This document shows, one piece after another, positions 1 through 55,714 of a stretch of DNA of 64,000 nucleotides; the first letter of the stretch is position 1, and the number at the start of each line of letters is the position of its first letter. The notes below the pieces were generated by a model. That model searched no databases and was not told the DNA's origin. It was given only the letters and a program-made list of their open reading frames with translations. Origin of the DNA: Porphyra umbilicalis (Eukaryota; Rhodophyta; Bangiophyceae; Bangiales; Bangiaceae); assembly GCA_002049455.2 (NCBI GenBank), contig KV918775.1, positions 372,001-436,000 on the forward strand, read 5' to 3'. The translations under genes were made by a program, and so were the position numbers.

Positions 1-2777
1 CGGTAAGTGCGTGCTCCATGCACACGGCCGACGGATGCATCACATCCAACGTCAGTGGTACCACGATGAGCAGCAGCATCATCTCGATCATCTTCACCAA
101 CCAGGGCACCAGGCACTCGTTGGTCACGAGCAACGCGTTGGTGGCGGGCGTCTCGTACGCCTCCATCCAGATGCCCTTGATCAGCACCAAGTCCTGCAGC
201 ACCACGAACACCACGAGCGCGCCGGTCATCAGCGCCATCGGTTCCTCGGCCGTCGAAATAACCTCCACCATCGCCTCCATTGTCGCCACCTCCACCGCCA
301 TGACCACGACGTTGTTCACCGCGTCCTAGACCATCACCACCTCCGCGGGCAACCCCTCCTCCGCTGTCACCGGGCCCGCTGTCATCGTAGGCGTCGTCCG
401 AGTCTCGCATGACTCCAGCGTCTGCTTGCTCGTCGTCAGACACGTCACGACCGTTGAGTAATTCCTCTGCAGGTTCATCCTCAGAGTCCCTGAGGCCACC
501 TGGTTGATGGGCGTCGATTATGCGGCGGACAAGGCTACGCAAGCGCCTTGGGGCGTGGGCCTTCTCCCGTTGGCTCGTGCCGTGACCTCGGAGAAGGCGG
601 GCTGCTTGTCGCGGCTGAGCCGACAGCAACATCGCCACAAACGCAATCAGGTTGTCCGCTGTCGTCTCTCGCCCTCCCGCCCGTGTCTTTAGCACCGAAA
701 TGGGAACCAAGGCTCGCAAGCCATCCTCAACAAGCTTTGTCTTCCGCGAATCGTCGCAGGTGCGCAGGTAGGTTGTGCATATGGCCACCGTCAACGCGCG
801 GAAGAGGCCTGTCACAACGTGCTCGTCCCATCCTCCCTCACCTCTCTCAACAGAAGAGGTGTCAATCACAGCCAGCGCCGCCTCTGGTACGGACTCATCC
901 GAGAGCGCCGTGCCTGAGCGCACAGCGCCGACCACCCGCACGACGGTCTCCCGCAGACCGGTCACAACGATGGCCCACCAGGTACCACCCGTGCACACGG
1001 GAACAACCGTCGTGCCGGCGCTGAACACCATCCGTTCCACGATCGCGTCACGGACTCGGCCAACAAGGCGATAATTGCGGGCCACTGAGGCTGCCATGTC
1101 ATCAGCGGTTAGAGAGGTCAGCACACGGAGACCGCCGTAGCCGCCGTCGCGGCCGAACTTCGTCAGGAACCAAAGGAAGAAACCATCCACCACGCGCCGA
1201 GAGAGCGCATTGCCCTCTGCAAGAGAAATTCTGTCAACCGGGAACAGCTCCACACGCCGAGGGGCCAGGGAGGGAAACAGGAACGGTGGATCATGGTGAA
1301 CCCTCGGCGGGGGGGGGCGCTGCAGGCATGCGCCCACCTCTGCGGCAGTACAATGCCATTGACGTCGACGTCGATGCCGTCGCGCGCTCTCCGTGGCAAC
1401 CGTCATGTCATCGTCGTCGACGCCGTCTGCGTGACCGCGCTGCTGTGCGGAAAAGCGCGGGCGACCCTCTCTGACAACCTCCCCAGAGCCATTGGGGGCA
1501 ACTAGCCGAGCTGGCCCTGGGGCAAACGGGTCAGCCAGTCGTGGAACATCGAGCGGCCGATGACTAGGTGCAGGCAGGCCCCTCGCGAGGCACGGAGAAC
1601 CCCGCAGGGGTGTCCGGCGTGAATTGGTGTGCGATGGAGCGTCATGGGCGGCTGGCGCGGGAGCGGTGTGGTCGAGCAGCGGCCGAGCGGGACTGTCGGC
1701 AGGCGGCAGCTCGCTCCGTCCGGCGTGGGCCTCGGCAGTCGCGTTGAAGGGGCGCGGCCGTGGCGGGCGCATCGTGCCCGCTTGCAACCCAGTTGCACAA
1801 CCGCCATTGCACGCGTGCCACTGCAAGGCACGCTGCACAAATACAGAGGAAGTGTCGGCGGCATCGGGTGCGGAGCGGCTGACGTCATCTTCCAAAGCCC
1901 TTACAGCCGACGACAATAGCGAATCCAGGGCGGCGGCGTCGCCGCAACCACCGGAGCAGTTGGGCATGGTCCGCAATTGATCTGCGCTGGGAACAAATTG
2001 TCGACCGGCAATCTCAAGTGCGCTCAGAACCATCCGCAACTGGGCCATTGACAGTCCCCCTGTGGATTGCCCAATCAGCGGCCGCCGCGCGTCATGCAGC
2101 ACTCCCACTAGTGCGGCAGCCGACGGCCGTGGCTCGCCGTCGCCAGATGCGTTGGCGGCGTGCACCGAGGCGCGATCCGACACTACTGCAGGCCGGTTAC
2201 GCCAGCGATTGGCGCCTGCGTTGCCAGGAGCATCTGGGGCCACACCTCCCTGTAGATGCAGGCGCCGCATCGCGCGGTTCGGGGCGGTCGCAGATATCGC
2301 CGCCCCGTGCTCCGGCGCCGATCCGGTCCGTGACGACGCTCCCAGATCACGGTCGGGTGCTGGTCTGCCGCGACCTTGGCGTGCCACAGTTTCTGAGGGT
2401 CCGTCGCCGCCCATGTGAGAGCCGGCCCCGCGACTTCGCCTCTTGGATCTTCCGCGGCCGCGAGCACGGCCGCGGCCGACGTCACCACCGTCGCCGCTCG
2501 ATTGGCCCGCATCACAATGCGAGGGGCCCACAGCAGACCGCCGCGCGAGGTCCTCGGCGCGCTGGGCGGCACGGGCCGCCACACGCATCTGGGCAGCGAC
2601 ACGCTGCGCCCGCGCAGCTTCGGCCTGGAGCACCTGCGCCTGCGACATCGCAGGCTGCGCGCCCCGGGACTCGTTGCGCTGCCGCTTGTTGGGCCCGTTC
2701 TCAGTCGGAGCGTCTTCAGACGCGCTCCGGTTGCCACCGCTGCCACGGCACCAGCTCGTGTCCCGATCCCCATCCAT
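1..2777 (-). CDS. Unknown protein, partial (runs off left edge); possible degenerate Ulp1-like domain
   Basis: One minus-strand frame is open from an in-frame stop near 2850 to base 1, about 925 codons from the ATG at 2777, with no stop inside the window. The first ~400 residues are low complexity: a Gln/Ala coiled coil (around 2670-2540), an RGRGRSKRRS basic patch near 2470, and Pro/Ala-rich sequence. Around 1260-650 the sequence becomes globular, with RRVVDGFFLWFLTKFG (about 1200), VVPVCTGGTWWAIVV (about 1000) and TTADNLIAFVAMLL (about 640). The order resembles C48/Ulp1 peptidases, but the catalytic His and Cys positions look replaced by Trp and Asn. An acidic stretch (DSEDEPAEELL, near 480) follows. 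From about 325 to 1 a different frame (325..1) reads as a hydrophobic, well-formed exon, so a small intron or frameshift near 330-420 is likely. I do not recognise the family. A mobile-element origin is possible, given the satellite beside it. Confidence 0.5.
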   Translation of the reverse strand, partial: MDGDRDTSWCRGSGGNRSASEDAPTENGPNKRQRNESRGAQPAMSQAQVLQAEAARAQRVAAQMRVAARAAQRAEDLARRSAVGPSHCDAGQSSGDGGDVGRGRARGRGRSKRRSRGAGSHMGGDGPSETVARQGRGRPAPDRDLGASSRTGSAPEHGAAISATAPNRAMRRLHLQGGVAPDAPGNAGANRWRNRPAVVSDRASVHAANASGDGEPRPSAAALVGVLHDARRPLIGQSTGGLSMAQLRMVLSALEIAGRQFVPSADQLRTMPNCSGGCGDAAALDSLLSSAVRALEDDVSRSAPDAADTSSVFVQRALQWHACNGGCATGLQAGTMRPPRPRPFNATAEAHAGRSELPPADSPARPLLDHTAPAPAAHDAPSHTNSRRTPLRGSPCLARGLPAPSHRPLDVPRLADPFAPGPARLVAPNGSGEVVREGRPRFSAQQRGHADGVDDDDMTVATESARRHRRRRQWHCTAAEVGACLQRPPPPRVHHDPPFLFPSLAPRRVELFPVDRISLAEGNALSRRVVDGFFLWFLTKFGRDGGYGGLRVLTSLTADDMAASVARNYRLVGRVRDAIVERMVFSAGTTVVPVCTGGTWWAIVVTGLRETVVRVVGAVRSGTALSDESVPEAALAVIDTSSVERGEGGWDEHVVTGLFRALTVAICTTYLRTCDDSRKTKLVEDGLRALVPISVLKTRAGGRETTADNLIAFVAMLLSAQPRQAARLLRGHGTSQREKAHAPRRLRSLVRRIIDAHQPGGLRDSEDEPAEELLNGRDVSDDEQADAGVMRDSDDAYDDSGPGDSGGGVARGGGDGLGRGEQRRGHGGGGGDNGGDGGGYFDGRGTDGADDRRARGVRGAAGLGADQGHLDGGVRDARHQRVARDQRVPGALVGEDDRDDAAAHRGTTDVGCDASVGRVHGARTY

Positions 2778-2845
2778 ATCCGGCGTGTGGCTTGCCAGCG
2801 ATAGATTGTTGCCCGTACCAGCGGGTAGCTCCGCGATTCGTCAAT

Positions 2846-3725
2846 CCCTTTCGGGACTGCGTGGTCCCTTTCGGGACGCGAATCACAACCAACCCTTTCG
2901 GGAGGCCACAGAGCACGCAGGTAGCGGTGTGGCGAGCCCCGAGCACCATAGATCACACAGTTGGCCGTCCCTTTCGGGTTAGTTGGCCGTCCCTTTCGGG
3001 GTGCTGTGCGCAGTCCACCCTCACGGGGGACCGACTCACCGATGGTGATCCGGGCCAGCAGCTGTCGAACACCGATGACGACTACAGGTCTTCCTTTTCA
3101 GGATACCGTGTGTGGTCCGCCTTTTCAGGGGACCGCAAAGCCGATAGATAGACGTGCACGAAGACCAAACAACGCCGATGACACAGCTGGCTGTCCCTTT
3201 CGGGGTGCAGTGTACGGTCCGCCCTTTCGGGGGATAACAACGACGGTCGGTTGTACAGCGCGAAGGCATGCACAGTTCGTCGACCCTTTCGGGGAGCCGT
3301 GCAGCGTCGACCCTTTTCAGGGGAGCCGTGGAAGGGGGGCGTCCCTTTCCAGGTGCCGTGCGGTCTCGACCCTTTCGGGGAGCCGTACAGCGTCGACCCT
3401 TTTCAGGGGAGCCGTGGAAGGGGGGCGTCCCTTTCCAGGTGCCGTGCGGTCTCGACCCTTTCGGGAAGCCGTGCAGCGTCGACCCTTTTCAGGGGAGCCG
3501 TGGAAGGGGGGCGTCCCTTTCCAGGTGCCGTGCGGTCTCGACCCTTTCGGGGAGCCGTGCAGCGTCGACCCTTTTCAGGGGAGCCGTGATAGGGGGGCGT
3601 CCCTTTCCAGGTGCCGTGCGGTCTCGACCCTTTCGGGGAGCCGTGCAGCGTCGACCCTTTTCAGGGGAGCTCGTGGAAGGGGGAGTCCCTTTCCAGGTGC
3701 CGTGCGATGTCCACCCTTTCGGGGG
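2846..3725. repeat. 86-bp tandem array with CCCTTTCGGG-type sub-motifs
   Basis: From 3306 to about 3720 the unit recurs exactly every 86 bases (starts at 3306, 3392, 3478, 3564 and 3650). Each unit holds three roughly 28-bp sub-units centred on CCCTTTTCAGGGG, TCCCTTTCCAGG and CCCTTTCGGGG. Upstream (2846-3293) the same sub-motifs occur at irregular spacing, for example CCCTTTCGGG at 2846, 2866, 2893, 2969, 2991, 3195, 3222 and 3284. The array lies between two divergently oriented unknown coding regions. Because 86 is not a multiple of three, any frame through it cycles through all three peptides; all three are open on the plus strand. Confidence 0.9.
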
Positions 3726-3759
3726 TGATCGATGGTGGCAGACACAGCGTGCGGCGGGG

Positions 3760-3804
3760 TAGGGGGGGGGGAGAAACAAAGCGGGGGGGGGGGGGGGGGG
3801 GGGA
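3760..3804. repeat. G-rich low-complexity run
   Basis: Two poly-G tracts, the longer more than 20 bases, follow the 86-bp array directly. Such runs recur through the window and coincide with apparent frameshifts in genes. Confidence 0.8.
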
Positions 3805-4860
3805 ATAAGCGGGTTACACTTACGATGATGAAAAAGAGAACGCCCACAGCGCCCAGCGCGGGGGGGTGGCGGGGAGCACGCCGTTGCCACAACGGATCGG
3901 GTGGCACAGAGATGCGGGGCAGTGCGCGGTAGGACGACGGTGCGGCTGGCGTCAGCAACCAGTGGCATGTGCTCGGCTGGGAGGAGGGGGCGCTGCCTCG
4001 ACGGTGCGCGGGGATATGGCGGTCTGACAGACGCTTGCGGTGCCCGATCGAGGTGTCCTCTCGTGGCCTCCGTGGCCGTTGGATCTGCGGGCGCCGCGCG
4101 CGTTTGTGTGGCGGCAGATCCACGGTGGAGGGTGCCGCCGGTCGAATCGAGATCACTCGTCGACCGGACCGATCGCAGCGGATCGTTTGCAATTTCCCGG
4201 ACAGATGCGGCGAAATACGTATTGGAACATCAATTGTCTGTAGTTGCACAGAGATCAATCCACGCCGGGGCCCCCAGCGAGAGAGTGCAGCTAGTCTGGA
4301 CCACACGATTCTTGCGTCCCCTCGCCGTCCGCGTTGCCACTGGATGCCATAGTAATTCTTCTCCTGGGACTCTTGCGAGCGCTTCAGCGGCAAGTGCGAC
4401 AGCGCCCCGACAAGGCAGAGCCCCCTGACCTACAAATGCATTTACTGGACGGGGTCTGGCGCCTGCGTGGCGGTATCTCAGGGGCGAGCTCACGACGAGA
4501 ACTGACCCGTCGCGGACGTCCACCGGACTGGGGCCATTGCTCTCAGAAGAGCCAGTGCCCGCAGGGCCTCGTCCCACTGTACCTCTCCTTGCCTCGGCAT
4601 CGTGCGTCCCGCACCCCTCGTCATCTCTCTTTGACTCCGCACCGCGCGTCCCGTGGCCCTGGCCCCCCGTCAGAGGCCTCTTGATGACGGTTGCTTGTGA
4701 CGAGTTTCTCTTGACTGGACCAGCCGTTGCCCGCGCCCGTCGCCCTGGTTGCCCGTGATAACTCTGTTGATCTCGGCTGCTTGTGACGACTCTCGGTTGA
4801 CTGGGAGAGCTCTCGACAGCGCCTGTCACCCTTGTCGACCGTGATATGTCTGTTACTCGC
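3805..4860 (+). other. Possible upstream exons of the gene ending at 5995; no firm gene
   Basis: No complete reading frame is convincing here. In one plus frame, sequence from about 4440 to 4690 reads plausibly (Pro/Ser/Leu-rich with SEEPVPAGPRP), and the same frame is open from 3901 to 4427 apart from one stop. These may be upstream exons or decayed parts of the gene whose better-supported exons begin at 4861. Transcript data would be needed to place exon borders. Confidence 0.3.
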
Positions 4861-5995
4861 AGTTTCTGATAACGACTCTACATTATCTGGGCAATCCCTA
4901 GACCTCTTCCTCGCCGCTGCCTCAGACGTCGCCATGCCTGGCAGTGACGCTGATGACTGTAACGACGTTCCCGGGACACCTGGGCCCAACTCGCCCGCCG
5001 TGGACTCCGCGCTGCTCTCTAGTGTCTGGAGCTCTCATGGAGTACGTTTCTCCTGTCCTTGACCTATGTGACTGCGCGCTCGTCCAGCACCCAGCTTTCC
5101 GTCGTGCGCATGCCGCCTCTCGTCCTTTCGTTCGTGCCGGATCTGACTCTGACGTTTTCCGCTTATGGACACTGTCTACGGGGTCTCATTTTTCGTCGTC
5201 TTGCTGCTACCTGGCTTTCCCTCGTCGCAGGATGAGGTCGTTGGTTTGTTTTCTAGGTACGGCCAGGCAATGCTCAAGAAGATCAGCTACGGTTCCGTGA
5301 GCCCTGGAACGAACGGTCACTCGGTCGACTCGCCCAAGCATGATTGCATGTCATGGTTAGCGCCTCCTGGACACCTGGAGGGCCCGAACAGAGATTGTAC
5401 GCGATCCCTCAGAGCTGTGGTTAACAAGGCGGTTGAGAAGTGTGTTACCGGAGTGGATCACGCTGCAAGCGGCTGGGAAAACAAGCGACGGGAGGTGAGG
5501 GCGGCGTTGAGAAGGGGCCTGCGTACTCGTTGCAACCGACGCCGTAACTCTGCACGACTGCTGGCTTACCGTACCTTGGGAGTTTACATGGATGGTGACG
5601 TCAGTGAGGCCTCTTTGGAGCGTGTGGTTGTGGCGACTGATCCAGGGAATGCCATGGACGCGGACGCTGCGGTTGCGGTGCCTGGGACCTCGAGCCCTGG
5701 GTACAGACTGAAGATCAAGGACGGGGATCGCGAAATGGAGAGAGCACTGGACTTGAGCGGCGTTGCGGCCTCTATTGTTGCTGAGCTCCTGTTGTTGGAA
5801 CCGAGTCAGGTTTGGACATCTGTGCGAGAAGCATGCGCGGCCTGCTTGAAAAAGTATGTGGATGCGACGGAGTACCCCAAGTTCTTGCGTCCAGAGAGCC
5901 TCGAGGCCCGCAATGGCGTTGTCCGCTGCATGCGCGACGAGCTCAGGGATCTTGAGGCGGGTGACATTGACCTTTCGGATGAGGAAGCCGACTAG
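4861..5995 (+). CDS. Unknown spliced protein, 3' exons
   Basis: Two exons join cleanly. The exon at 4861-5041 follows a good acceptor (TTACTCGCAG) and ends at a GTACGT donor. The exon at 5231-5995 follows TCGTCGCAG and ends in TAG. Both are in the same phase, giving about 314 residues. The first part is acidic and Ser/Asp-rich (SDNDSTLSG, GSDADDCND). The second is basic then helical (ENKRREVRAALRRGLRTR, LKIKDGDREMERALDL) and ends in a very acidic tail (DIDLSDEEAD). The start codon is not found and probably lies in upstream exons. No known domain is recognised. The gene is divergent from the edge-open minus-strand ORF across the satellite array, so the two could belong to one element. Confidence 0.45.
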
Positions 5996-6114
5996 ATCCC
6001 TCGCGCGACACGTGATGATACCCCCGCGGTGCATGCTGCGCGTCCAGCATCATGTCTTGGCGTCCACACATCCTGGAGCCAGCGTGACAGATCATGCGAA
6101 CGTGCAGCTGCCAC

Positions 6115-6780
6115 CGGTTTATTTCTGCTCTTTTTTCTTTCTTTCTCGTTTTATTTTTCTCGTGGGTTTTTTTATCAAAGACGAGTAAACCAAAAAAACG
6201 TACGTCGCTTCCCAGGATTATCGCGCGCGATCATCACGGAAAATATGAGCGGAAGTGCTCCTCAGTTAATTTCTAATACTGTTCTCTTGTTTATTTCTCG
6301 GCAGTCCCTCAAGATGAGATACTCGCAGAATCGAAGAGTGAGAATGAGGGCCGCTCCACGAACCATCTAGCAGATCGTTCCTCTGACCAGCGCGGGGATT
6401 GCAGTGTGGATATCCTCTGACATGGGCTCTGTGATGGACTCACATGTGGTCGATTGTATCGTCCCCATGACCATCATACAAATGAAGTGCAGTACGTGAT
6501 TGGACACCATTCCTCGAAAAAGGAGAGGGATAAATCACCATTTAGTATCTGAAACAGTCTGTGTGGACCCGTAGGGACAACGTAGACAAGAGTATCCTTC
6601 TGACTGCATAACGAACGTGCCAACATATTGCTGGTCATCGAGTCTGCGGAATAGTCTCTCATACGTTTTGCAGGATCAGATGCCGTCTTGTTCGGCAAAC
6701 GGTCCTGGACACAGTTCCTGAACTGATCGCAGGATCATCCTCGGGTAAATGCTAAAACAATCCCATGATCAAATCACGGC
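6115..6780. other. Lower-GC, T-rich intergenic island
   Basis: Base composition drops sharply from the surrounding GC-rich sequence. 6118-6180 is a T-rich tract (TTTATTTCTG, then CTTTTTTCTTTC), possibly the 3' end region of the gene ending at 5995. No gene is seen. The island continues through the 200-bp duplication that follows. Confidence 0.6.
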
Positions 6781-7160
6781 AATTCCGACTCTCACTCGTG
6801 GAACTATCCTACCAGGCTGCCAGAAAAATCCGGAAGATAATTCCACAACCGTCGACGACCTTATTCCCAGAATCATTCATCGAAGAGTCCGGCGGCATAT
6901 CCCAATTCAGCCTCCTTATTTATATTAGCGAAACATATCTCAATACATCCCGTGATTCAATACAAGCGCGTAGGCACGAAAATTCCGATTCTCATTCGTG
7001 GAACTATCCTACCGGGCTGCCAGAAAAATCCCGAAGATAATCCCATGACCATCGTCGACCTTATCTCCAGGATCATCCATCGAATAGTCCGTCGGCATAT
7101 CCCAATTCAGCCTCCTTATTTATATTGGCGAAACATATCTCAATACATCCTGTGAATTTA
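6781..7160. repeat. 200-bp direct tandem duplication (two copies)
   Basis: The block starting AATTCCGACTCTCACTCGTG at 6781 is repeated from 6981 at a spacing of exactly 200 bases, and identity stays high up to CAATACATCC at 7141-7150. Mismatches are scattered substitutions (for example CCGGAAGATAAT versus CCCGAAGATAAT). The copies carry no long conserved reading frame and are much less GC-rich than the flanks, which suggests an inserted element or remnant. Confidence 0.85.
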
Positions 7161-7980
7161 ATACCTGCACGCAGTGTATGATAGCGGGGGGTTTCCAAGC
7201 CACTTTAGAAGTTCAGGAAACTTCAATCCGCCATATCTCCGATCGACCAGTCTCATGTGCAATGAGGATTCTATCGTAAGGTGCCACAACTGTACAGTCA
7301 ATATCCGGTTATATCCACTCCAGTCATACATCACCCTGCTGCATAACTGGGAGAGCAATTGTGCCCAGAATGGGCTTTCCTGACACTGTGGGGAGGGCCA
7401 AGTACTATTTCCGCTCGCGGCACGCTCTTTGTAGCCCACCTGTTTCTGCATGCCTGTCATTCGCGTCAGCGTGCGACATAAGGGGATACTGTACTGTATT
7501 GACTGTACAGTAGATCACTTTGAGGTAAAGCCTGCACATTGGTCGAGCCATTCGCGCGGGGCCTCACGACCAGAGAAACCCATGGCTCTGGGAGCATCCA
7601 GTCAGAGCGAGAAATTCAGCTCCCGACGTCGACGCACCGGCGTAGCGGGGGCCACTCGATGGACACCCTGGGGGGCCCCTGATGGCACCCCACCTGCTGC
7701 AACGCTCGCGTGGAATACGACAGCCATTCCTGACGAACCGGCTGTCCGCGCATGTCACGATAGGACCCGCCACCGCGCAGCCCTTCTGTTGTGGTCACGT
7801 GGCGCTCCTGCTCTGTTTTTGTTCCCACCTGTCCACGTCCACGACGTCTACCTCTTCTGCGCACTCCCTCTGTTCGCGCCGGCGCGGCACACTGTCTTCT
7901 GGTTTTCGTGGGTGGATCTTGTACCGTTGCCGCTCGTGCGGTCACCCCCGCCCTCGACGGCTGTGTTTGCCATCGGCGCC
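7161..7980. other. Intergenic, no gene seen
   Basis: The end of the lower-GC island grades into GC-rich sequence that would be the upstream region and 5' leader of the gene starting at 7981. Reading frames here show no domain or codon-usage support. Confidence 0.5.
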
Positions 7981-18896: not shown

Positions 18897-21800
18897 CTAG
18901 TGGTCCGCACTCGCCGAGCCGCCTGCATGGTTGGCGCCGCCCCCGACCCCCGCCGCCCCGTTGCCGAGCAGCTTGGCGTGAGCCGCCGGCGACAGTGGCG
19001 CGAGCGCCGCCTCCAAAACCCCAGCCGGAAGCACTGCTTGCATGCGCGCGATGACCGTCACGGCGCGGCCGCTGTACTCATCGTCGAGAAGCTCCGTGCC
19101 GATGACGTCGGCCAGGACGGCCAACACCCTCGGCAGCCCCGCGTACGTAGCACCCCCAAACACCCGCTCGTCCCCACGCTCACAAGCGCGCACTAGCGCG
19201 GCGTGGACGACGCGCGCCTCGGCCACGTCCGCGCGGAGGGGCAAGTAGCTGAGCCACACGCTCGTCAGGCGAGAGGCCACCACGTCGCCGCCAACGCAGC
19301 CGGCTTGCATCTCAAGAACCTTAGCCAGCGCGCATACGGCATTGTCAGTGGCCATCTCCGAGCCCTCCTCGCGCGACGTGGGAGCAGTAATGACCGCCTC
19401 GAGGGCGAGTGCCGCCTTGGCGCCCCCCGCAGCCATAAAGGCAGCACTAGCTTCGGCGCCGTTCAGCGCGCACACCTCTGCCGAGGCGCCGACGCCGTAC
19501 GTGGCTGCCTGCCGCACGTCCGGATCCTCATCGGTGGCGTACGCACAAAGCGCGGGGAGGACACGCGGAATCCACGCCAAGCCCGCCGCACCGCCATGCT
19601 CAACGACGTCGTCAAAGACGCACAGCGCCACACGGCGCTCGCCGCCGCTGCGATCGCTCGCCAACAGCGCATAGAAGTGCTCCAGGAGGGTGCTGAGTGC
19701 GGGCAGGCCACCGCTGCGGACGACGGTGCCGACAGCATCGCCGACGTGGGAGAGGAGCTCGTCCTCTCTTGCCTCCTCTTCATTAGCGTCCTCGTTCTCT
19801 TCTTCGTCCCAGCCGTCCTCCTCGGCGGCAGCTACTCTCTCACGGCGACGGCTCTCCGCCTCGGTGACTACCCGTTCCAGGCAGTTGGCCACCGCATTGA
19901 GCACGGACTCGGCGTCCGCACCGCTGGTCACGTGCACGCCACCGACATCGACAATCTCGCCAAGGGCCTCAACCATGGCCGAAAGCACCTCCGTTTCTGG
20001 CTCGTTCGTGATCGCCTCGAGCAGCGTTGGCAGCATGAACGCCACCAGCTGGGTAAGCGCAGTTGGCGCCGCCGTTCCGCTGTTCTTGACGCACCGCAGC
20101 AAGTCAGGCAGGCAGTTCGCCGCTGCTGTCCGCACCTCGTCATGGTAGAAGAACTGCAACAGGGGCACCATGAGCTGCGCCACGGGCTCCACGTAGTCCA
20201 TCATCCCGACGCCCAGCTCGGTCACAAAGCACGTCAGCATTGTGCAAGCCGTCGCCTTGTCCTCCAGAGCCGCCGTTCGGATGCCAATGCGCTTGTCCCC
20301 AAGAGTCACCGTCTCCAGACCCTCTTCCTCATAATCAGCATCGTCGCCGAGCACCTCAATGTCCGGCTTTTGCGAGGCGGCCGTCAGCAGACCGGGCATG
20401 ACGTAGGGCAAGTAAGGAAGAAAGCCGTCACGCAGACAACGGCAGATGCGCGCATACGCTTGCATGAGATAGAAGGCCTGCGGGTCGTCCACGCCCGCGT
20501 CGGCAGACGTGCGCACCAGGGCATCCATCACCTGAGCGGCGTCGGCACCAAAGCGCTCGCGCCCGACACTCAGGCCGATCAGGGAGATGCACTCCATGAC
20601 CTTGCCCCGAAGCCGCCGCAGCCGCTGGTTGCCCGCCGACCGGGTAAGAACCGCCTTGAGCGGCGGCATGAACGTGCCGTAGTACGTGTCAAACTGCGTC
20701 TCGGCAGCGTCCGCAACCGCCGCAATGGCCGTCACCGCCTGCTCCTGCGTCATCAGCCGCGAGGACTGCAAGAGCGACATGAGCTGACCGAGCAGGGTGT
20801 CCAGGTAGGGCGCCATGATCGCTGGCGACGCCTCGTCACAAAAGTTGATCACCGCCGCCGCCGCGTGGCTCTGAACCCGCGCGCTACCTTGCCCCGACTG
20901 GCCGTCCGCGCCGCCGTCCCCGTCCGCCATGACACCGACAAGCGCGGGCAGCACCTGCGCGTGGAACTGCTCCTGGATGCCCGGCCCGAAGTCCGTGCAC
21001 ATCTGCCCGATGCAGTTCACCGCCGCCCACCGCACACGTGGGTGGGGGTCCTTGAAGGAGCGCAGTGCGAGGCCAACCACCGAGCCGAGCTTGCCGCCCT
21101 CGAGCTGCTTGCGACAGCCTTCGCCAATCTGGGAGATCGCCAGCAGCGCCGCGTGCCGGTTCATCCATCTGTCGGCCGAGTTGAGGTAGGCCGGCAGCAG
21201 CTCCTCTGCCACGGGGAGAACCGACTTGCCGCCAAGCGCCATCGCCAAGCGGTCCAGCGCCTCCTGGCCGGCGCTAAAGTTGGTGTAATCGGACGAGTCC
21301 TCCTCCTCTTCGTCCCGCGTGTGCCACTCAGGCTCGTCCTCGAGCTCCAACATCATACCCAGTGCCACTGGCAGCACGCTGCGGACGTAGGTGCCGAGCT
21401 TGCGGCACGGGCCAGGCAGCTTCTCAGCGGCAACGACCAAAAACTCGAGGCCGAGCTGCCGCGTGTTTTCCTCCAGCGCCGCCGTCGACGAGACGGAGAG
21501 CATCAGGGTGGCAGCCAGGCCGAGCTGCGACCGCCAGATCCGGGGCTCCGCGTCCAAGACCTCGACCAGCAGCTCCATGCACGTGCGAGCTTCAACCTCA
21601 TCCCCCGCCGCCAGGGAGCCGCTGACGACCTGGAGCATGGCGGGGAGCTGCGGCTCAAAGGCGCGGCAGGCCTTCGACTCGAGGACGCTGAGAGTAGCGC
21701 ACGTGGCCCGCAGGGCGGCCACACGCACAGCGGGCACGCTGTCAGCCAGGCCAACCTCCACCGTCGACCGCAGCGTCGGCGCCTGTTGCTCGAGCTCTGG

Positions 21801-22605
21801 AGCGCTCATGTAGGCAGTGATCTGCGAAAAGATGTAGAGGGAGCTCTCCCGCTCCGTCGCGACCGTGCTGGTCGACAGCGACAGCAGCCGTGGCAGCAGC
21901 TCCGGCCACCCATTGTCCGACAGCAGGTGGCCGCCCAAAGACCCAATCGTGTCACAGAGCTGTGCGGGACCAAAATCAAACATGGACGAGGGAGAAGAAC
22001 AGGACTTGAGGGGAGCAAAACAAGTGAGAACGCATGAACAGAAAGCTTGCACACTCCACGAGAATGTCCACCATGCTGGTAGCGTCCCATCGCGGCAGCA
22101 TCTGCCCCCATTCCACCGCGTCGGCTCGAACCGGCCAGGAGTGGCCGAAAGGGCCTTACTCAACACCCCAATGGATGCGCAGATAACACCAAAGCCACCG
22201 CACTGGGTTACCAGACGCGCATATACAGAACACACTTGCTATCGCCTCCTCCCCCCTCAACAAACGTACCTTCTTCCTCAGCCCGTCGCGGTAGTCCCCC
22301 TGGATAGATTGCAGAAGCGTGCTCTTCACCCCCAGCCGCACGCGTTCATCCGCTCCCGACCAAAGCTCCTTGGTGGTGCGGCGGAGCAGCACCGCCGCGG
22401 CTTCCCGCACCAGCTCGTCCGACGACGCCGTCGCGAGAACCGCCAGCACCTCGAGGCAGACACTCGGCGACCCCTTGGCCGCGTTGAACTGGGCCTCAGC
22501 CTCCCCGCGGACGGCGTTGTCCGGGGACTGCAGGCGGCGGAGGACGTCCTCCATCACCGAAGCGGCAGTGCCCCCATTGGCCGACCCGTTGGCGTCGGAC
22601 GCCAT
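18897..22605 (-). CDS. IPO5: Importin-5 / karyopherin beta-3 (Kap121-type)
   Basis: Exon 1 is 22605-22270 (112 codons) and exon 2 is 21959-18897, joined across a 310-bp intron (donor GTACGTTTG, acceptor CCGCACAG), giving 1132 residues, close to the ~1100 typical of importin-5. The junction restores LRKKLCDTIGSLGGHLL, matching the family's K(V/L)CD...VAELA segment. The protein is a run of HEAT repeats, among them MNRHAALLAISQIGEGCR, HPRVRWAAVNCIGQMCTDFGP and the acidic loop WHTRDEEEEDSSDY. A second acidic loop (DGWDEEENEDANEEE, about residue 880) is the conserved insert that contacts Ran and cargo. It carries ribosomal proteins, histones and other cargo into the nucleus. Its antisense strand holds a long meaningless open frame. 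Confidence 0.95.
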
Positions 22606-52181: not shown

Positions 52182-53552
52182 GGCGGTCGCGCGGCGGGTC
52201 GCCCGCGCGCCGGCCGTCGGGCGCGGCGGCGGTCGCGCGGGCGCGGTCGCGCGCGGCGGGCGGCGGGGGGGGGGGGGGGGGCGCGCGCGGCGGCGGCGGC
52301 AGCGCGGAGGAGCGGCGGGCACCAGCGCATGGGGAAAGGGGCGGGGGGGGGGGTGTTGGCGGGGCGCCGCAGGGAGGGGCAACGTCGGGGGGGCGGCGTC
52401 GGGGGGGCGGCGTCGGGGGGGCGGCGTCGGGGGGGGCGGCGTCGGGGGAGTAGCGTCGGGGTGACGGCGTCGGGGGGGTAGCGTCGGCGGGGCGGCGTGT
52501 CGGTGGGGCGGCGTGTCGGTGGGGCGGCGTGTCGGTGGGGCGGCGTGTCGGTGGGGCGGCGTGTCGGCGGGGCGGCGTCGGCTGGGCAGCGTCGGCGGGA
52601 CGAGGCCGGCAGGTCGGCGGTGGCCGTCGCCCGCCGCGATCAGCGGTCGAGCAAGGAAGCGAAGAGGCACGGCAAAGCCGGTCTTCTTTTTTGAACGTGG
52701 ATCACGACCACGTTCAAACGTCGGTTGGCAAGTAAGTACAAAAACGACCCAGTCTTCCTTTGCCTCCAAGTTGTTTTCGACCACGAGGCAAGCCGAGGTC
52801 TGACCAGCGGGCCAGCTGGCAGGCCCCAGTCTGCCCCGAATGCGTGGAGTGTCGCAGCCAATCCCAGTGTCAGTTTTGTACCGGTCCAGCCATTGACCTG
52901 ATAGGGGACACGTTGTGGCCGCCATCGACTCGTGGTTTGCGGCTGGGTCCACTGACGACGCGCAGGGCGGGTTTTCTGAGTTGCTGGCCGCCCGTCCAGC
53001 CACCAATTGCGAAGCGGTACGAAACGGTCATTGTAAATATTGGCGGTCACTCAACCGCCGCCCGCACACCGTCTGCTGCCTCCTCTGCGCAGGTGTCGTG
53101 TGCAGGTGCACGACCTAATCGGCCGGCGAGCGTCCGCTAATCGCATGAACGTGCCAATCGCTCCACCTCCGCACGGGGCCGGCACAGGACCACCCACAAG
53201 GCCGCGTTGCAGACCAACCCGCTTGCGCGCCGAGTCTGCGTCCGTGCCTCTGCGCAGCGGGGCCGGCCGAGCGGTTCCCCATTCCCCCCCCCCCCCACCG
53301 AGGCTCCCACCAGGCCACACATTCGCACGCGCCCCAATTGGGGTCGAAGTTGTCGGCGACGTTGACAGCACGGCGGCGCGTGTCCCGCGGCCCTGTGTCT
53401 CGACGACGTCACCGGCGACGACGCGGGCGCGGTGGCGGTGGCACGTGCGGTGGCCACAGCGACGACGACAACGACGGCGGCGGCGCGGGGACGGCGTGAC
53501 TGGGGACACGCACACACACACACAACACTCTCTAGGGAGGCTCCTTCGTGGT
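52182..53552. other. Divergent intergenic region with minisatellite and (CA)n tract
   Basis: 1.37 kb between the starts of the TDP2-like and DDX3-like genes. It contains the 16-bp minisatellite (52373-52590), a lower-GC patch (52680-52760) and a (CA)n run (53507-53525) 30 bases before the DDX3-like ATG. No gene is supported. Confidence 0.5.
52373..52590. repeat. 16-bp GC-rich minisatellite
   Basis: GTGTCGGTGGGGCGGC recurs exactly every 16 bases at 52497, 52513, 52529, 52545 and (variant) 52561. The preceding 52373-52490 carries diverged units of the GGGGGGCGGCGTC type. It lies upstream of the TDP2-like start. Confidence 0.9.

Positions 53553-55714
<2,162 letters not shown>

Follow-up and report, generated by a model that had tools for sequence, protein, structure and literature searches.

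A tandem array of GNRA-loop mini-hairpins within a giant En/Spm (CACTA) transposon of Porphyra umbilicalis that carries a JmjC gene

The tandem array of short GNRA-loop hairpins described here is an internal part of a 14,541-bp En/Spm (CACTA) transposon of the red alga Porphyra umbilicalis. The stretch analysed, hereafter the window, comprises 64,000 nucleotides of contig KV918775.1 (positions 372,001 to 436,000), and the element spans the sequence between C15:364636 and window position 7176. An earlier note on this DNA had described the array as a satellite whose stems, by their compensatory change, suggest selection for a folded RNA or DNA. Rather than a free satellite, the array is a component of the transposon, and we find no support for the view that its stems are selected to fold as RNA or DNA. 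With a probability of about one half, we regard it as a fast-turning cis-regulatory array of this giant element, which may be the target of an anti-silencing protein. Throughout, C-numbers denote contigs of the genome searched (83.8 Mb, 665 contigs), the window lies on C15, and positions without a prefix are those of the window.

A giant transposon with a JmjC gene

The element is assigned to the En/Spm (CACTA) group because of its termini, its flanking duplications and a Transposase_21 match above the cut-off. The left terminus reads CACAGCGCG, while the right terminus CCTGCACGCAGTG (7164-7176) ends in CGCAGTG and reads CACTGCGTG as its reverse complement; the terminal inverted repeats begin with CAC, as in CACTA elements. 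The target duplication is 2 bp long (ta/ta at the window's element), and the flanking dinucleotides are equal in five of the six copies of which both ends were read, with a mismatch in C31. The Transposase_21 match (C15:366808-367149) lies in a plus-strand frame at the left of the element and scores 36.4 bits against a cut-off of 28.6; a shorter piece alone reaches 27.2 bits, which is under this cut-off. The right half of the transposon occupies positions 1-7176 of the window, and the left end lies outside it. At the right end, a 200-bp subterminal repeat is present twice (6781-7164), and the tandem-repeat search listed no tandem repeat in the 2.4 kb of the left end. Giant En/Spm elements of 16-20 kb with four to five ORFs have been described in Chondrus crispus (Kojima et al. 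2013, cited in the accessible text of PMC6431247), and they resemble the present element in superfamily, size class, the possession of several ORFs and a red algal host. A FemAB_like gene (C15:362758-364275, L028 5759-7276; E 7.8e-104) lies directly left of the insertion. The subfamily to which the window's element belongs is represented twice on one short contig (C415:24000-55754).

The interval from the transposase to the array is occupied by a long minus-strand frame (C15:368781-374840) of 2,020 codons from stop to stop, or 1,999 codons from the ATG at 2775-2777; its N-terminal part forms the open frame at 3-2777 of the window. The part outside the window contains a JmjC domain (PF02373, E 2.1e-14; 59.8 bits in the genome search), whose closest relatives of solved structure are JMJ13 (E 2.3e-21) and the KDM4 enzymes, with the HVE...H positions aligned. 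The frame looks like a genuine gene, judged by this domain and by a dN/dS of about 0.26 in codons 451-750 between C15 and C64, the only pair in which the entire minus frame is open, other pairwise blocks being mostly gaps. In other blocks of this pair the ratio is about 0.1 (codons 1801-1950), 0.7 (codons 301-450 and 1351-1500) and above 1 (codons 1-150, with one synonymous and eight other changes). Comparison of the recent copies C64 and C4 gave no clear constraint on the JmjC frame. Visual inspection of the minus frame had suggested a Ulp1-like protease, a reading dropped for want of Pfam support.

The JmjC gene is a standing part of this transposon lineage. Among 105 JmjC matches in the genome, 59 are located 2.6-4.0 kb from a Transposase_21 match, with about 1.7 expected by chance and with both match lists being lower bounds. 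All 59 pairs are arranged tail-to-tail, including the pair of the window's element (C15:366808-369851). With so many pairs in one genome, the counts of JmjC genes in such genomes are therefore swollen by transposon genes, regardless of what the array does.

The middle of the JmjC frame (window 1-2000 and C15:370500-372000) differs by 13-35% and is partly unalignable between copies that are otherwise mostly 94-100% alike. Diversifying selection on this hypervariable region was considered and rejected, as the region has an excess of synonymous as well as nonsynonymous changes. It is probably a mosaic of older segments, which explains this pattern better. When C15 is compared with C4, the central part of the JmjC protein is strongly different while the array differs by ~4%, so protein and array are not changing together at that level. 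Diverged repeats of ~300 bases, ~360 apart, were also noted within the JmjC frame (window 52-351 and L009 4267-4956), and other copies contain repeats ~510 bases apart in varying number.

The array and its counterparts in sister elements

The array is placed between two divergent genes, the minus-strand JmjC gene and a plus-strand gene referred to here as the right gene. It is composed of a degenerate head (2845-3231) with ten spaced GNRA mini-hairpins and an 86-bp tandem array (3280-3724; 5.2 copies, 96% matches) with the other 16, both read on the minus strand. Each 86-bp unit includes three sub-motifs, CCC-GAAA-GGG, CCCT-GAAA-AGGG and CCT-GGAA-AGG. The earlier note had reported these sub-motifs, and their coordinates and letters proved correct. 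In 2801-3760, perfect Watson-Crick stems of 3-5 bp that close a GNRA loop number 26 on the minus strand and one on the plus strand, which also bears out the reported confinement of GNRA loops to one strand. The loop is GAAA in 20 of these stems, GGAA in five and GTGA in one (3018-3027, in the head), and the reported outlier with five pairs was located at 2864-2877. When CCY-NNNN-RGG was counted on the minus strand of 2778-4930 for any loop, GNRA was present in 26 of 26 instances. For comparison, GNRA stems of at least 3 bp number 61 on the minus strand and 35 on the plus strand of the whole window, so that sequence beyond the array has ~0.5 per 960 bp. The core pattern has 25 matches in the whole element, all of them inside the array and in a single orientation. 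A G-rich tract, read by eye, lies directly past the array (3756-3803, plus strand), and G-rich stretches are also present past the C16 and C182 arrays. An Rfam search of the window returned no matches at the gathering threshold, and no match was found in the phage collection searched.

The array region is present at eight other genomic loci (nine in total) with 92-96% identity, and at each of the eight the likeness extends past the array. Its length in the copies compared ranges from 831 to 1,110 bases. BLAST rows below the set length limits were left out of the copy comparisons, and the copies without an alignment anchor (C31, C415a, C70 and C142) were cut at 520 bases.

Sister elements carry arrays as well. 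Seven of the ten sister pieces read have a tandem array, located either next to the minus-gene start or ahead of the right gene, with units of 138/276 bp (C87, C2 and C76), 197-200 bp (C182, C8 and C15:476k) or 164 bp (C16). We refer to the window's array as type I and to these three as types II, III and IV, respectively. The other three pieces (C164, C19 and C8:309500-315500) have no array; in the last of them, the likeness to the window stops at 2875 and one CCC-GAAA-GGG hairpin is present. In all six sisters checked, the minus frame begins next to the array and continues without a stop as far as the piece extends, although only 79 codons are covered in C8. The sister arrays have a different sequence at the equivalent place, with units rich in inverted repeats, mostly with loops other than those of the window and, in several cases, with stronger dyads. 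The core motif of the window occurs once each in C87, C2 and C19, where it has the loop GTAA and an equivalent context.

All folding z scores were taken against dinucleotide shuffles. In the sister arrays they range from -2.5 to -8.5 for the 138-bp units, from -2.2 to -6.6 for the 197-200-bp units and from -0.9 to -3.9 for the 164-bp units. When the proportion of bases located in stems is taken as the measure, only type III clearly exceeds the G+C-rich window; types II and IV are middling and type I is ordinary. The numbers of changes per column in stems and in other columns of the plus-strand structures are 1.45 and 1.91 for type II, 0.34 and 1.59 for type III, and 0.15 and 0.42 for type IV, with pairs below 60% Watson-Crick cells left out and type IV representing one element (six rows, three distinct). 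Double changes in stems account for 8, 6 and 0 cells, respectively. The slower change of stem columns in these types fits conserved sites equally with a conserved fold. The G-U wobble strand test showed no strand bias in types II-IV beyond the strand used for structure prediction, and it is uninformative because the bias follows the strand of the predicted structure.

The right gene probably includes a first exon at 4934-5041 (plus strand, 36 codons; similar in L025 and L026) and a second exon at 5231-5995 (plus strand, 254 codons and a stop), joined at a GT..AG boundary read by eye. Its DNA identity is ~69-74% across many sister elements. The product has no Pfam match, its best E value in a PDB sequence search is 0.012, and an AlphaFold model made without an alignment was useless (pLDDT 39). 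Pfam scans found no DNA-binding domain in the JmjC protein or in the right-gene product. Between the array and the right gene lies the block TCGAGATCACTCGTCG (4147-4162), and TCACTYGTC is found past the array in all eight elements examined (C164 and C19 left out).

An A+T run, which is a candidate TATA box, lies between the array and the ATG in five of seven elements compared (C87, C2, C182, C8 and C15:476k) and is absent in the window and C16. With this candidate box in types II and III, the array would therefore lie upstream of transcription and not in a leader, and its position weakly favours a role of the array as DNA over one as RNA. The array had been placed just upstream of the minus-strand ORF, as its possible leader. 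The placement holds, as 67 bases separate the ATG from the first hairpin; the leader role is not supported, and the candidate TATA boxes of types II and III speak against it.

A proposed regulatory role and known systems

Starting from what was directly observed, namely the element with its ends and duplications, the frames, the position of arrays in sisters and the change of array sequence, we propose that the array may act as DNA. Its repeats, in part dyad-symmetric, would offer candidate binding sites close to the promoters and so form a platform that sustains expression of the element's own genes. The short dyad CGTCCCTTNCGGG, single in some sisters, would have been amplified to ~26 copies in the window's subfamily. 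An element protein, either the JmjC protein alone or together with the right-gene product, could be recruited to the array and might there remove repressive histone methylation. Against this proposal stand the failure to find a DNA-binding domain in either protein, the separate change of protein and array between C15 and C4, and the three sister pieces that have no array. If the JmjC gene and the array do cooperate, another transposon lineage would escape silencing by a histone route while doing the host little harm, and the replacement of arrays from one subfamily to the next would reveal the evolution of target choice.

The VANDALs are Mutator-like transposons. In Arabidopsis, their noncoding tandem repeats are the targets of VANC, the element's own anti-silencing protein (accessible text of PMC5735166 and PMC10398659), and these target repeats vary between related elements (PMC5735166). 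The present element is alike in that noncoding tandem repeats in a DNA transposon differ between relatives, here as four types at one place in related elements, and in that its protein may act on silencing. However, VANDALs encode VANC, whereas the window's element is an En/Spm element with a JmjC gene. Among the element frames scanned, Pfam gave no match to a VANC homologue (DUF1985/DUF287, named in PMC5735166).

In fungi, TET/JBP dioxygenases are encoded by DNA transposons, EnSpm among them, according to the accessible text of PMC12730594, in which JmjC has no occurrence. In both cases the transposon bears a dioxygenase able in principle to lift silencing; TET/JBP acts on DNA methylation, whereas the JmjC of the window's element is of the histone-demethylase type. 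Soybean TgmR* CACTA elements have reiterated subterminal motifs able to form stem-loops (accessible text of PMC4219821). Stem-loop-forming motifs are thus common to both, but the soybean repeats are subterminal and the window's array is internal and gene-proximal. That the present lineage recruits its own histone demethylase to fast-changing arrays next to its promoters, as a sequence-specific anti-silencing system of an origin independent of VANC and of fungal TET/JBP and directed at histones rather than DNA methylation, is a stronger claim that we regard as rather unlikely.

In the open literature searched, no JmjC gene was recognised as an En/Spm component, and no internal arrays of CACTA elements were found by title. 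Multi-gene giant En/Spm elements and CACTA stem-loop repeats are already known, and the novelty of JmjC as a fixed part is put forward only weakly.

Tests for a selected fold and alternative explanations

The main rival to a cis-regulatory array is a functionless minisatellite, produced by slippage or unequal exchange, in which the dyads arise via template switching at small inverted repeats and the stems are unselected. We hold it to be a serious though somewhat unlikely explanation. Across the nine copies, stems, loops and spacers are substituted alike (6/68, 3/40 and 40/372 columns, respectively, gaps excluded), and hairpins do not differ from spacers (9/108 vs 40/372, Fisher p 0.59). With gaps counted, the changed columns are 13/68, 6/40 and 49/372. 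This lack of constraint on the cores counts against a regulatory array, and a functionless minisatellite would show it as well. The minisatellite reading is also favoured by the varying array length between copies and by the total stem content of the array, which is not above the level of the 64-kb, G+C-rich window. It is opposed by the recurrence of arrays with different units at the equivalent place in sister pieces and by the lower rate of change of stem columns in types II, III (0.34 vs 1.59 per column) and IV, the last being one element.

A structured RNA, in which the JmjC minus-strand transcript opens with a row of GNRA hairpins acting in translation, stability or RNA export, appears improbable. 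The core instances of the nine copies have a GNRA loop in 236 of 242 cases and Watson-Crick pairs in 738 of 765 cells, but both shares are upper values because similarity to the cores was the basis on which instances were selected. Among the remaining cells, ten would be wobbles on the minus strand and two on the plus strand (three and two distinct variants), which agrees with a minus-strand RNA. Loop forms common to many copies or sisters also keep GNRA (GGAA and GTGA in the window, GTAA in C87, C2 and C19), a point for the fold view that does not suffice to claim selection. In the head (2836-3240), the minimum free energy has a z score of -2.4 on the minus strand (2 of 200 shuffles as low) and -0.3 on the plus strand. 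The flanks range from -0.75 to +1.8 and other tandem repeats of the window from -4.0 to +2.3, and a low z on a single strand is no proof because these control repeats reach such values. The 86-bp array itself yields only -0.3 to -1.4, so the minus-strand folding check that had been suggested shows folding no better than that of shuffles. Outside the founding forms, four of five loop variants (six instances) lose GNRA and one (eight instances) retains it. Most sisters carry other loops, types II-IV have no wobble bias beyond the prediction strand, and two types have a candidate TATA box between array and gene, all of which weigh against a structured RNA.

The compensatory change that had been read from the stems found no support either; the motifs are duplicates of each other. 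In the 12 distinct CCC..GGG sites, exchanging the outer arms between sites does not worsen their pairing (175 of 500 swaps equally good). When all 18 distinct sites were used, 6 of 300 arm swaps were equally good, in a swap that mixes CCC and CCT stems. Sub-motif C, read by eye, looks like a re-registered stem following a change in one arm. The T-A pair reported at 3093 does have the letters described, but it is private to the window copy and thus no shared covariation: column 3095 is T in the window copy, C in seven and A in one of the eight other copies. If read as minus-strand RNA, the seven copies with C would have a U-G wobble there. The folding, arm-swap, substitution and loop tests all fail to support covariation, and they rule out an RNA leader with selected GNRA hairpins as the main reading. 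We infer that the GNRA appearance is a property of one amplified core, not of a conserved fold.

Binding sites for the transposase or a TnpA-like protein, comparable to the CACTA subterminal repeats, which are direct and inverted and able to form stem-loops (accessible text of PMC4219821), are very improbable given that the 25 cores are separated from the right end by ~3.5 kb and from the left end by 10 kb, and that the core pattern is absent from the rest of the element. It is just as hard to credit that hairpin-rich transcripts serve as a small-RNA target or trigger that feeds host silencing or diverts it: the folding of type II and III arrays does surpass that of shuffles on both strands (z -2.2 to -8.5), but the type I array has no such excess, and feeding silencing would be of little benefit to a transposon.

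Several minor observations were made on the remaining sequence. The segment 52483-52592, in a G-rich tandem repeat at 52342-52599, has z scores of -4.0 on the plus strand and +2.3 on the minus strand, which is a strong strand asymmetry. Two long uninterrupted frames of the window resemble host genes for an importin-like protein (18897-22235, minus strand) and a DEAD-box helicase (53885-55714, plus strand). Contig C665 (at least 170 kb) accounts for ten of eleven phycobilisome matches, which points to a red algal host, and is probably the plastid genome.
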